Source: Acidobacteriaceae bacterium
GTDB lineage: Bacteria > Acidobacteriota > Terriglobia > Terriglobales > Acidobacteriaceae
Length of the DNA stretch: 12,518 bases
Assembly (NCBI GenBank): GCA_030040175.1
Contig: JASHUF010000111.1
Span: 1 to 12,518 of the forward strand
Direction of reading: 5' to 3'
Position numbers and translations under genes: made by a program. Position 1 is the stretch's first letter, and every line of letters begins with the position of its first letter. Shown piece by piece: positions 874-9,894 of the stretch. The notes under the pieces are model-generated. The model saw nothing but the letters and a program-made list of their open reading frames with translations. It was not told where the DNA came from and made no database searches.

Positions 874-1746
874 TCAGCGCCGGGAGGCCACAATGGCAAT
901 GCCGGCGGTGTTGGCCCGGGCGAGGAGGGAGTCGCGGTCGAAGAGGAGTGTGCGTCCGGCCTCGATGGAAAGGCAAGCGGCCCCGGCGCGGATCATGGTT
1001 TCGACTGTGGCCGTGCCGATGACCGGGACATCGAAGCGGAGGTCCTGGTTCGGCTTGGCTACCTTGACCACGGTGAGCCGGCGGGCGAGAATCGACGGCT
1101 CCGCTGCAGCGTCGCCGTTCGACGGGTCGTCGAGTGAACGCATCAGCCGGCCGGCGCGCTCGATGGTCGCGTCCGTGCCTTCCATGGCCTCGACGGCCAC
1201 GCAGGCCTGCGCGGCCACAACCACCGTCTGGCCGATGTCGAAGGCAGCCAGGGCACGGGCAACATTGAGGCCGTACTCGATGTTCTTGTTCTCTTCCTCG
1301 CCGGGTGCGCGCTTCGTGAGCACACCTTCGGCTGCCAGCAGCGGCTCGAGGAACGAGGTGGAGCTGACGAGCTCGATGCCTTCGTCGGCCAGCACCTTGG
1401 CCACGGCGCCGAGGAGCATGTCGGTCGACCGGGTGCGGAGACTGAGGAGCAGCTTGGCCAGCCGCCAGTCGGGCCGAATGGAGGAAAAGATCTGCTTGTG
1501 TTTCACCTGGCCGGCCATCACGGCGCGGGTCACGCCTTCCTTGCGGAAGGTTTCGATGAGCCTCGAAAGCTCGCCCAGCGAGAGCCAGTGGACGCGGATC
1601 TGGGCGTCGTCGGCGGCGAGACGGTCGATCTCGGGATCGGTTTCTTCCTTGATGGCGGCGACCACGACGGTGAGCCCCTGGGCGCGCGCCGCGTCGAGCA
1701 GGAGAAACGGGAAGCGGCCGTTGCCGGCGATGAGGCCGAGGGTCAT
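874..1746 (-). CDS. lpxI: UDP-2,3-diacylglucosamine pyrophosphatase LpxI (DUF1009)
   Basis: LpxI hydrolyses UDP-2,3-diacylglucosamine to lipid X and UMP in the cytoplasm. It is the alternative to LpxH in lipid A synthesis. The 290-aa length fits the family. Visible family motifs are the N-terminal GLIAGNGRFPFLLLDAAR (residues 3-21), GQVKHKQIF (79-87), the central segment VAVEAMEGTDATIERAG (183-199), and KPNQDLRFDVPVIG (231-244), whose acidic residues belong to the C-terminal catalytic domain. Residues about 204-218 are a low-complexity insertion (D/S/A/E-rich). The ATG at 1746 gives the expected N-terminus, although no good Shine-Dalgarno precedes it. In relatives lpxI usually follows lpxA closely; here 792 nt with a transposase and two REP-like hairpins separate them, so its transcription may differ from that of lpxA. 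Confidence 0.93.
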   Translation of the reverse strand: MTLGLIAGNGRFPFLLLDAARAQGLTVVVAAIKEETDPEIDRLAADDAQIRVHWLSLGELSRLIETFRKEGVTRAVMAGQVKHKQIFSSIRPDWRLAKLLLSLRTRSTDMLLGAVAKVLADEGIELVSSTSFLEPLLAAEGVLTKRAPGEEENKNIEYGLNVARALAAFDIGQTVVVAAQACVAVEAMEGTDATIERAGRLMRSLDDPSNGDAAAEPSILARRLTVVKVAKPNQDLRFDVPVIGTATVETMIRAGAACLSIEAGRTLLFDRDSLLARANTAGIAIVASRR

Positions 1747-1793
1747 GCGGACCGCCGGGCCGCTGCGAGCGAACAGGGATCGCAGGCGGGTCT

Positions 1794-1810
1794 TCCTCCC
1801 GGAGGGAGGA
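1794..1810. repeat. Tight inverted repeat beside the REP-like element
   Basis: A perfect 7-bp inverted repeat, TCCTCCC / GGGAGGA, surrounds a 3-nt loop GGA. It lies 10 nt left of the left REP-like hairpin, between lpxI and the transposase. It could be part of the mobile cassette or a local structure in the lpxI leader; no function is evident. Confidence 0.5.
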
Positions 1811-1820
1811 CCGACGATAG

Positions 1821-1858
1821 CCCAGGGTGGAGTGCGCGGGGGCGCACGAAACCCTGGG
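1821..1858. repeat. REP-like 38-nt hairpin, left copy
   Basis: An outer stem CCCAGGGT (1821-1828) pairs with ACCCTGGG (1851-1858). An inner stem GTGCGC (1832-1837) pairs with GCGCAC (1842-1847) across a GGGG loop. The reverse complement of the right copy (2419-2456) has the same length and matches it at 32 of 38 positions. Four of the six differences are two compensatory base pairs. This is the pattern expected of repetitive extragenic palindromes mobilised by a RAYT transposase. Confidence 0.8.
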
Positions 1859-1941
1859 AATCTAGCGCGAGAGTGACGCGCCCGTCCCGGAGGGCCGGTC
1901 GAATCATCGTGACGCCGATTGCTCTAGAATGGGTTGCCATC

Positions 1942-2391
1942 ATGTCCCACACCTACTGTTGCGCAGTGTTTCACTGCGTGTTTTCCACCCAGGAGCGGCG
2001 AAAAGCGATTTCCGCCGAGATGCGTGAGAGACTCTGGGCCTACCTGGGAGGAGTTGCGCGCAAGCGTGGGATGAAAGCGATTGCTGTAGGAGGGATGGAA
2101 GATCACGTCCACATTCTACTGTCCCTCCCATCATCGATGGCGATCGCGGAGGCCATGCGAGAGATCAAAAGCGAGTCGTCGCGATGGATGCGTGAGGAGG
2201 CTGGCAAGCCGCGCTTTGCTTGGCAGGAGGGATACGGTGCATTCTCGGTCGGATGCGCGCAGATCGATACGACCGTGGCATACATCGCGCGGCAGGCCGA
2301 ACATCATAAGCGGCGCGATTTTCAGGCGGAGTTCGTGGCGTTCCTGAAGAAGCACAAGATTGAGTACGATCCGCGATACGTGTGGGGCTGA
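1942..2391 (+). CDS. IS200/IS605-type Y1 (HUH) transposase, RAYT-like
   Basis: This is a 149-aa single-domain Y1 transposase that would cut and rejoin single-stranded DNA at hairpin ends. Visible motifs are the metal-binding HUH signature MEDHVHILLSLP (H55, H57), WQEGYGAFSV (94-103), and the catalytic YxxxQ as YIARQ (Y114, Q118) followed by HH at 121-122. The C-terminus (HKIEYDPRYVWG) is typical for this group and the protein looks intact. The ATG at 1942 is chosen because homology begins there (MSHTYCCAVFHCVFST); the frame is open further upstream only across antisense lpxI. No Shine-Dalgarno is seen. A TAGAAT at 1925-1930 could be a -10 box giving a nearly leaderless mRNA. It is the only gene between 1747 and 2538 and is flanked by inverted REP-like hairpins, hence the RAYT reading. 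No TnpB partner is present. Confidence 0.9.
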   Translation: MSHTYCCAVFHCVFSTQERRKAISAEMRERLWAYLGGVARKRGMKAIAVGGMEDHVHILLSLPSSMAIAEAMREIKSESSRWMREEAGKPRFAWQEGYGAFSVGCAQIDTTVAYIARQAEHHKRRDFQAEFVAFLKKHKIEYDPRYVWG

Positions 2392-2418
2392 TTTCGGGCG
2401 GTTGGGAGGGCGAGTGTT

Positions 2419-2456
2419 CCCAGGGCTTCGTCCGCCGCGGCGGACTCCGCCCTGGG
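2419..2456. repeat. REP-like 38-nt hairpin, right copy (inverted)
   Basis: An outer stem CCCAGGGC (2419-2426) pairs with GCCCTGGG (2449-2456). An inner stem TCCGCC (2431-2436) pairs with GGCGGA (2439-2444) across a 2-nt GC. It begins 27 nt after the transposase stop codon. It is the inverted partner of the hairpin at 1821-1858, with outer arms identical at seven of eight bases per side and the non-palindromic strands GGAG and CGAA conserved. Confidence 0.8.
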
Positions 2457-2467
2457 CAATTTTCGAG

Positions 2468-2482
2468 CGCCGCTGCGCGGCG
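2468..2482. repeat. Short GC hairpin between REP-like element and lpxA
   Basis: A perfect 6-bp inverted repeat CGCCGC / GCGGCG surrounds the loop TGC, 11 nt right of the right REP-like copy and 57 nt past the lpxA stop codon. No T tract follows on either strand, so it is not a standard intrinsic terminator. It may be a companion hairpin of the REP unit. Confidence 0.4.
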
Positions 2483-2538
2483 AAGTTCGATGCCTGCGGG
2501 GACGGGTCGCGATAGTCCTTTGCGAGGATGCGGGAGGG

Positions 2539-3324
2539 CTATTTGATCACCCCGCGGTGGGAGCGTTCGATGAAGGCGATCAGCGTCGCGATGTCGTTGT
2601 CGGCGGTGTCGCCGGCATGCAGGGCGCGGAGTTGTTCGAGGGCCTGCGTGGTGTTCAACTTCGAGGCGAGCAGCAGGCGGAAGGCCTTTTGCAGGCGGGC
2701 GAGGCGGTCGGGCGAAAAGCCGCGCCGCTCGAGGCCGATCTTGTTGATTCCGAATGCCTTGTTTTCGCGCCGCGCAGAGGTGAGCGAGAACGGGAGCACG
2801 TCCTGGGTGACGATGGTCCCGCCGCCGACGAAGGCGTAGGCGCCCACGGTGCAGTGCTGGTGAACGGGGCAGAAGGCGCCGAGGGTGACATGGTCTTCGA
2901 TGGTGACGTGGCCGGCCAGCGTGGCTGCATTAGCGAGGATGCAGTGGCTGCCCACCTGGCTGTCATGGCCGATGTGCACCTGGGTCATAAGCAGGCAGTT
3001 GGAACCGATGCGGGTGACGCCTCCGCCGCCGGCGGTGCCGCGGCTGATGGTCACGCTCTCGCGAATGGTATTCGAGTCGCCGAGGATGGTCTCCGTAGGC
3101 TCGCCTTTGTATTTGAGGTCCTGCGGGGCCACGCCGACGGAGCAGAAAGGATAGAAGACATTGCGTGCGCCGATACGCGTGCGGCCGTCGAGGACGACGT
3201 GGGAGATGAGGATGCAGTCTTCGCCCAGGACCACCTCAGGGCCGATGGTGGAGAACGGACCGACGGTCGAGGAGGCAGGTACTTGGGCTCCCGGAGCGAT
3301 CACCGCGCTCGGGTGAATGCTCAT
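2539..3324 (-). CDS. lpxA: Acyl-[ACP]--UDP-N-acetylglucosamine O-acyltransferase LpxA
   Basis: LpxA transfers a beta-hydroxyacyl chain from ACP to the 3-OH of UDP-GlcNAc, the first step of lipid A synthesis in the cytoplasm. The 261-aa protein has the expected left-handed beta-helix of hexapeptide repeats (residues about 3-180) and the C-terminal helical domain starting at NKIGLERRGFS. The catalytic histidine is H120 in VHIGHD (E. coli H125). H117, H139 (LAGHV) and H155 (VHQ) match E. coli H122, H144 and H160. G168 aligns with the E. coli chain-length ruler G173, so a long (C14-like) acyl chain is predicted. The ATG overlaps the fabZ stop as ATGA, implying translational coupling; only a weak GGGGA precedes it. 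Confidence 0.96.
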   Translation of the reverse strand: MSIHPSAVIAPGAQVPASSTVGPFSTIGPEVVLGEDCILISHVVLDGRTRIGARNVFYPFCSVGVAPQDLKYKGEPTETILGDSNTIRESVTISRGTAGGGGVTRIGSNCLLMTQVHIGHDSQVGSHCILANAATLAGHVTIEDHVTLGAFCPVHQHCTVGAYAFVGGGTIVTQDVLPFSLTSARRENKAFGINKIGLERRGFSPDRLARLQKAFRLLLASKLNTTQALEQLRALHAGDTADNDIATLIAFIERSHRGVIK

Positions 3325-9819: not shown

Positions 9820-9894
9820 GGCCAGGTAGCTCAGTGGTAGAGCGCGGCCCTGAAAAGGCCGGCGTCGGCGGTTCAATCCCGTCCCTGGCCACCA
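9820..9894 (+). tRNA. tRNA-Phe (anticodon GAA), CCA encoded
   Basis: A complete cloverleaf is present. The acceptor is GGCCAGG (9820-9826) with CCTGGCC (9884-9890). The D arm is GCTC/GAGC (9829-9843). The anticodon stem CGGCC/GGCCG (9845-9861) has loop CTGAAAA, giving anticodon GAA. The variable loop is GCGTC, and the T arm GGCGG/CCGTC has loop TTCAATC. Discriminator A is followed by an encoded CCA at 9892-9894. Confidence 0.97.

Follow-up and report, generated by a model that had tools for sequence, protein, structure and literature searches.

The window, by which we mean the whole 12,518-nt stretch of Acidobacteriaceae DNA analysed here, holds a short transposase gene between lpxI and lpxA, bracketed by an inverted pair of elements that each comprise three hairpins (SL1, SL2 and SL3) and a tetranucleotide tag. 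Several of the following assignments draw on matches to R1, a covariance model for which 55 elements from other loci, and none from the window, were used.

874-1746, minus strand: lpxI, left neighbour, on the strand opposite to the transposase gene
1747-2538: inserted stretch of 792 nt, delimited by comparison with same-genus loci
1795-1809, plus strand: left SL1, CCTCCC-GGA-GGGAGG, read from the sequence within the R1 match 1787-1903
1817-1820, plus strand: left tag ATAG at the foot of SL2, a putative guide tetranucleotide, read from the sequence
1821-1858, plus strand: left SL2, a 38-nt hairpin described in an earlier note on this DNA, from sequence and folding
1882-1898, plus strand: left SL3, adjoining the gene, its stem with one T.C mismatch, read from the sequence within the R1 match
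1942-2391, plus strand: HUH/Y1 transposase gene, 149 aa, from Pfam, NCBIfam and PDB matches and conserved residues
2393-2415, minus strand: right SL3 site, apparently decayed and with no clean stem seen, from the sequence at the end of the R1 match 2393-2490
2419-2456, minus strand: right SL2, the inverted 38-nt copy, from sequence and folding and within an RF01687 match (2419-2482)
2457-2460, minus strand: right tag ATTG (CAAT on the plus strand), read from the sequence
2468-2482, minus strand: right SL1, CGCCGC-GCA-GCGGCG on the minus strand, read from the sequence within the R1 match
2539-3324, minus strand: lpxA, right neighbour, on the strand opposite to the transposase gene

A tRNA gene lies further along the window (9820-9891; RF00005, 67.7 bits).

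The encoded protein scores 98.7 bits against Pfam Y1_Tnp (cut-off 23) and 75.2 bits against the NCBIfam IS200 profile (cut-off 55), and a PDB sequence search matches it to the solved ISHp608 TnpA (E 1.9e-7); its nearest named relatives are labelled Acidobacteriaceae. Its motifs are DHVH (residues 54-57), WQ (94-95) and YIARQAEHH (114-122, with Y114). Both DHVH histidines, W94, Q118, H121 and H122 are kept in 100 of 100 aligned proteins, Y114 in 99 and Q95 in 96, and the catalytic residues of the window transposase are intact. The source assembly (3.37 Mb in 562 contigs) is 80% complete and contains one full-length transposase copy. A broken second homolog lies on contig C161 of the same genome (G000, 2396-2898; L002, L168), with a facing element pair still around it.

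Comparison with 19 other same-genus loci (20 other genomes, one of which gave no locus) reveals that lpxA and lpxI are separated by 0-4 nt in 12 and by 49 nt in one, as against 792 nt in the window, so that the module was inserted into a tight junction. Among the 19, no lpxI lies within reach in three, and in one locus the same junction is occupied by a 62%-identical homolog, equally oriented and with elements of its own, which suggests an old insertion; a protein tree bearing on one old insertion versus two at lpxA-lpxI has a support of 0.151 and does not decide. At two loci (L125 and L126) the junction holds other open frames, of 309 and 352 codons in inserts of 1141 and 1060 nt, respectively. 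The tight junction in relatives, together with the patchy presence of the gene (62 of 150 family genomes at E ≤ 1e-20), would suit an insertion sequence in which gene and both flanks still move as one piece with inverted hairpin ends. We consider this unlikely: recent copies are few, with 2 of 80 within-genome protein pairs above 90% identity and a median identity of 0.495, the shared occupied junction points to an old event, and the ends of IS200/IS605 elements are not known to form an inverted pair. The reading that we prefer is that of a REPtron-like module, in which the bracketing elements are the presumed substrate of the enzyme encoded between them.

The two inverted 38-nt hairpins lie where they had been placed by the earlier note, and inspection of the copies confirms its account of their differences: these fall at positions 8, 14, 18, 20, 25 and 31, of which 8 and 31 (T-A versus C-G) and 14 and 25 (G-C versus C-G) form compensatory pairs, whereas 18 and 20 are loop positions. 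Two compensated pairs between just two copies are thin evidence by themselves. Folded as single-stranded DNA, the four hairpin strands reach -15 to -16.1 kcal/mol (z -3.8 to -6.1; 0, 0, 1 and 0 of 200 shuffles folding as well), and alignment of the upstream flank with the reverse-complemented downstream flank scores 53, compared to shuffle maxima of 25 (60 shuffles) and 29 (50 shuffles). Model R1 recovers both window copies, at 1787-1903 (plus strand, 37.7 bits) and 2393-2490 (minus strand, 27.7 bits), and the 38-nt hairpin thus makes up just the middle third of the whole element. The hairpin pair is real, and its extent exceeds the earlier description: SL2 is the centre of an element of about 100 nt that reads SL1, an NTAG tag with SL2, a spacer of about 20 nt and SL3.

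To place the locus among its relatives, we drew on a protein scan of named genomes, which gave 15 loci from Acidobacteria, Hydrogenedentota, Lentisphaeria, Verrucomicrobia, Phycisphaerae, Planctomycetaceae and Bacteroidetes, and on a further 60 loci added by protein similarity from part of the matches listed. The pair test then covered 103 testable loci, a figure that leaves aside one locus that was too short and two (L054 and L055) without a single sufficiently long hit. Alignment of upstream with reverse-complemented downstream flanks at the first loci reveals a recurring inverted SL1-NTAG-SL2-spacer-SL3 arrangement with SL3 proximal to the gene. When the alignment score has to exceed the best of 60 shuffles by 8 or more, an inverted flank pair is present in 92 of the 103 testable loci, and 11 fail the test; the same flanks pass as direct repeats in 33 of 103.

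A clean SL2 is found on both sides of the gene in 66 of the 103 loci, the other 37 having no clean matching SL2 pair. Tag and stem vary between loci and usually agree from left to right: among the 66, for which the choice of hairpin relied in part on pair similarity, the left tag equals the right in 51 (shuffle mean 11.2, maximum 21, 2000 rounds) and the first stem octamer is identical in 54 (mean 4.0, maximum 12). In the relatives TTAG, ATAG, GTAG or CTAG account for 98 of 132 tags, 27 of them GTAG. Within 15 genomes that carry several such genes, octamers agree in 35 of 43 comparisons around the same gene versus 6 of 100 between different genes; the likeness of the two ends could also come from gene conversion between them. 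Across 62 genes, protein distance correlates weakly with the SL2 stem (Mantel rho 0.163, 3 of 999 permutations as high) and with the tag (rho 0.168, 11 of 999), and the relation is clearer between nearest protein neighbours, which differ by 1.40 stem mismatches versus 2.47. A tail test for the cleavage site, run over 63 genes, gave a mean common substring of 2.81 versus 2.40 permuted (maximum 2.71, n = 1000), too weak a signal to place a site. In Bacteroidales, a homolog of the Paludibacter protein occurs in 66 of 149 genomes (E ≤ 1e-15), and of the 28 loci testable out of 30, 16 pass the pair test, three of them doubtfully (L232 is of low complexity, and L218 and L237 lack clear hairpins); the tags there are often ATAA, and the inverted-pair pattern extends to this order, though less cleanly.

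Structural constraint on the folded hairpins, which had been proposed from the window pair, holds when elements from other loci are compared. Alignment A1 comprises 55 of 114 listed elements, one per gene and picked for Watson-Crick SL2 stems, the 114 themselves having been filtered to leave out stems longer than 22 nt, elements distant from the gene, and four loci. Paired cells amount to 91.5% on these 55 elements (74.4% when shuffled and at most 45.3% in slid controls), and both-side changes to 158 cells, compared to 48.9 in shuffles and no more than 40 in slid controls. Two of five covariation measures are just mildly above shuffles, namely 13 pairs versus 10.7 (26 of 500 shuffles as high) and 30 further pair types versus 26.4 (23 of 500). 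SL1 (76% paired) and SL3 (95.2%), neither of which was selected for pairing, both contain both-side changes.

The elements are also dispersed through the window's own genome. With 150 of 1123 candidates scored, model R1 yields at least 57 matches at E ≤ 1 and at least 48 at E ≤ 1e-3, so that the earlier note's refuting outcome, a hairpin found nowhere else in the genome, does not apply. The note's proposed search with the 38-nt pattern itself finds little, with 5 matches at up to three mismatches, two of which are the window's own; the exact pattern is rare, but related elements recovered by R1 are many. Thirty-two own-genome elements that we read fall into two types. Type A (CCCCGCG..., n = 15) includes the three inverted pairs of an array and the pair around the broken homolog on C161, and type B (CCCAGG... 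or CCCGGG..., n = 17, including the window's two) mostly carries ATAG or TTAG as its tag and often has the GGAG/CGAA internal loop with variable inner stem that the note had singled out. The array (L136, contig C233, 1423-2197) consists of three tandem inverted element pairs with a period of 252, 3.1 copies and 91% matches. Dispersed type B elements have the SL2 foot in common with the window copies and differ from them in SL1 and SL3, and it is therefore uncertain whether the window gene drives them. In a crude test against open reading frames, fewer elements than random stretches lie inside long frames: 9 of 26 lie mostly inside frames of 250 codons versus a fraction of 0.65 of random stretches, and 21 of 26 versus 0.94 at a threshold of 100 codons.

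The element is homologous to Acido-Lenti-1 (RF01687), which Rfam files as an sRNA with function unassigned. The family scores above its cut-off at several of the first-scanned loci, on the strand opposite to the SL1-SL2-SL3 reading; in the window itself the right copy reaches 30.1 bits (2419-2482), below the cut-off of 37, and the left copy is not listed. RF01687 is weak on the window's branch, with 0 and 2 matches in two genomes whose proteins are 65% and 73% identical (G122 and G169, respectively). An Rfam scan of the 60 homologous loci selected by protein places Acido-Lenti-1 over the cut-off in 37 and no other Rfam family over its own; in 35 of the 60 its distance from the gene is at most 250 nt, and in 19 facing copies stand on either side. 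Its strands on the left are minus in 33 cases and plus in 3, and on the right plus in 27 and minus in 3, several of these from the tandem array L072. At that locus (206-1730), same-strand tandem copies flank one homologous gene on both sides in place of the usual facing pair. Three same-strand copies spaced by 136 nt also occur on contig C10 of genome G001 (8-325).

Association with the gene was examined against 20 control loci, taken as lower-ranking Y1 matches in order from E 3.6e-14, without genome G059 and with 700-nt flanks where the contig allowed. Acido-Lenti-1 is found at one control locus of the 20 (L272; Fisher p 1.7e-5); the Y---NP type motif occurs in 13 of 19 control loci, the twentieth being too short, and is absent from L272, and other inverted hairpins or repeats surround 8 of 19. 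Of the Y1 loci L238-L241, two give short matches of 9.9-15.9 bits and two give none. Four Y---NP Y1 genes from the same genomes (L268, L277, L278 and L285) have unrelated inverted flank repeats of their own, several around GGGCACG...CGTGCC.

At the level of genomes, Acido-Lenti-1 occurs in 95 of 150 family genomes versus 0 of 14 control genomes (E ≤ 1e-3). It is present in 60 of the 62 genomes with the gene and in 35 of the 88 without (Fisher p 2.7e-14, kinship ignored), so not equally in both, as the note's second refuting outcome would have had it, with medians of at least 25.5 and 0 matches per genome, respectively (38 candidates per genome scored). Ten of those 35 genomes have 20 or more element matches. 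A looser protein search covered 57 genomes (the 35, two gene-only genomes and 20 of the 53 genomes with neither gene nor element) and gave some match (E ≤ 1e-3) in 14 of the 35, among them a nearly full-length homolog in G095 (3.3e-20) and pieces in G094, G073, G084 and G008; the remaining weaker matches may be other Y1 kinds. The same search gave no match in the other 21, and the element thus often occurs where no gene was found, through loss, through gaps in draft genomes or through a role of its own. Among 15 genomes reached by protein alone, Acido-Lenti-1 matches are present in 13 (2 to 132 per genome) and over the cut-off in 11; the two matchless genomes (G176 and G177) contain loci L048 and L049, both of which are among those that did not pass the pair test.

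Do Acido-Lenti-1 and the hairpins act as RNA? Weinberg 2010 rated the motif as probably an RNA (PMC2864571), a 2026 paper describes its function as little known and suggests a regulatory role beside Tannerella protease genes (PMC13298647), several copies have been reported in Vibrio anguillarum (PMC10059132), and the family is named in PMC7682815 too; a link between motif and transposase is absent from the Acido-Lenti-1 passages of the first three. Among the titles listed for RAYT/REP work on Acidobacteria, on Bacteroidetes and of recent date, none makes a link to Acido-Lenti-1; this literature covered few subscription papers and no supplements, so that an earlier report is possible.

If the element were an sRNA, an attenuator or an mRNA-stability element, its nearness to the transposase would be secondary, and the end of the aligned element, which lies 0-20 nt from the gene start at many loci, could affect translation. 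However, RNA helices usually tolerate G.U, and in 80 distinct hits, scored over eight pairs of the SL2 main stem each, 632 of 640 pairs are Watson-Crick, with 1 G.T, 4 A.C and 3 others, a count mildly biased by choosing the stem length with most Watson-Crick pairs. The near-absence of G.T favours a function as DNA, and the copies that face each other across the gene, their left-right matching per gene and the array of inverted pairs likewise speak against the RNA reading, which we deem improbable. That the hairpins are terminators or other gene-end structures flanking the gene by chance, as GC-rich hairpins near gene ends might suggest, we reject as highly implausible, since neither window SL2 is followed by a T-run on its own strand and a three-hairpin element whose tag and spacing recur surrounds homologous genes in other phyla.

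Given the layout and its recurrence across phyla, the covariation, the left-right matching, the dispersed copies, the array of inverted pairs and the homology to Acido-Lenti-1, we consider it likely that the locus is a REPtron-like module, that is, a class 1 Y1 HUH gene inside an inverted three-hairpin pair with NTAG-SL2 as its presumed substrate. In such a model the transposase would bind NTAG-SL2 on single-stranded DNA, for example on the lagging-strand template, and Y114 would cut and rejoin nearby with the tag as guide, by which the elements could spread or be maintained, singly or in inverted pairs; the two elements bracketing the gene would then correspond to a REPIN-like pair with the gene as its cargo, and Acido-Lenti-1 would be the enzyme's DNA substrate in place of an sRNA. 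What is catalogued as the Acido-Lenti-1 RNA is probably a DNA element on which transposases of this type act. We further lean towards a broader proposal, in which the family is the folded single-stranded DNA substrate of a class 1 (IS200-type) transposase and not an RNA, and REP-like repeats would thus have arisen or persisted in a second Y1 branch, in three-hairpin form, across Acidobacteriota, Hydrogenedentota, Lentisphaerota, Verrucomicrobiota, Planctomycetota and Bacteroidota. This offers a testable identity for an Rfam family described in 2010 and a candidate substrate for a transposase subclass published without REPs (PMC6006769); if true, sRNA-gene annotation mislabels these repeats, and the three-hairpin form provides a new test case for the reading of folded DNA by Y1 enzymes.

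The earlier interpretation as a RAYT-like transposase within a minimal REPtron is, as a whole, partly supported. As in the RAYT/TnpA-REP REPtrons of E. coli and S. maltophilia, a Y1 HUH gene lies between inverted palindromes that each have a tetranucleotide at their foot, palindrome and tag are specific per gene, and dispersed copies and an inverted-pair array occur. In contrast, the window protein has Y---Q--HH where classical class 2 RAYTs have Y---NP and scores 34.7 bits against REP_Tyr_transpos (cut-off 80), the tags are ATAG and ATTG in the window and mostly NTAG in relatives where REPtrons have GT[AG]G, and the element spreads three hairpins over about 100 nt. The layout and the dispersed copies thus stand, but with two of the defining features, Y---NP and GT[AG]G, missing, we do not file the locus as a REPtron despite its presumed REPtron-like working. 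According to Corneloup 2021, TnpA-REP enzymes act on REPs in single-stranded form, and the importance of the GTAG tag is not the same in every system; by likeness to TnpA-REP/REP, NTAG-SL2 would also be processed as a single strand.

By motif, the protein fits TnpA-Y1 subclass 1.2, for which the relevant text of Quentin 2018 gives DH[IV]H, WQ, Y---Q--HH and a median of 148 aa (PMC6006769): it has 149 aa, DHVH, WQ and YIARQAEHH. In Table 1 of that paper WQ is also listed for subclasses 2.4-2.7, with W[TS] in 1.1 and WE in 2.2. The same text describes subclass 1.2 as found mostly in Cyanobacteria and Bacteroidetes, without REPs and generally without typical IS200 terminal structures, unlike the element-bracketed genes found here in Acidobacteriaceae and other phyla; inverted pairs in 92 of 103 loci revise the published description of the subclass as having no REPs, and not its sequence criterion.

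TIRYTs are likewise Y1 genes within inverted repeats, some of them in Acidobacteria (Di Nocera 2013, PMC3733652), but 20 of 26 are placed in subclass 2.1 and the remaining 6 in 2.2 or 2.5 (Quentin 2018, PMC6006769), and their reported motif GGGGWSAS is unlike the window element. RF01687 covers SL2 and SL1 on the opposite strand, and differs in its filing as an sRNA, in a 46-nt model that omits SL3 and in a cut-off above the scores of the window copies. Finally, the locus resembles IS200/IS605 elements (IS608, ISDra2) in having hairpins near the gene and a Y1 transposase related in sequence to ISHp608 TnpA, and is set apart from them by its facing inverted pair, its few near-identical copies and its dispersed gene-free elements.
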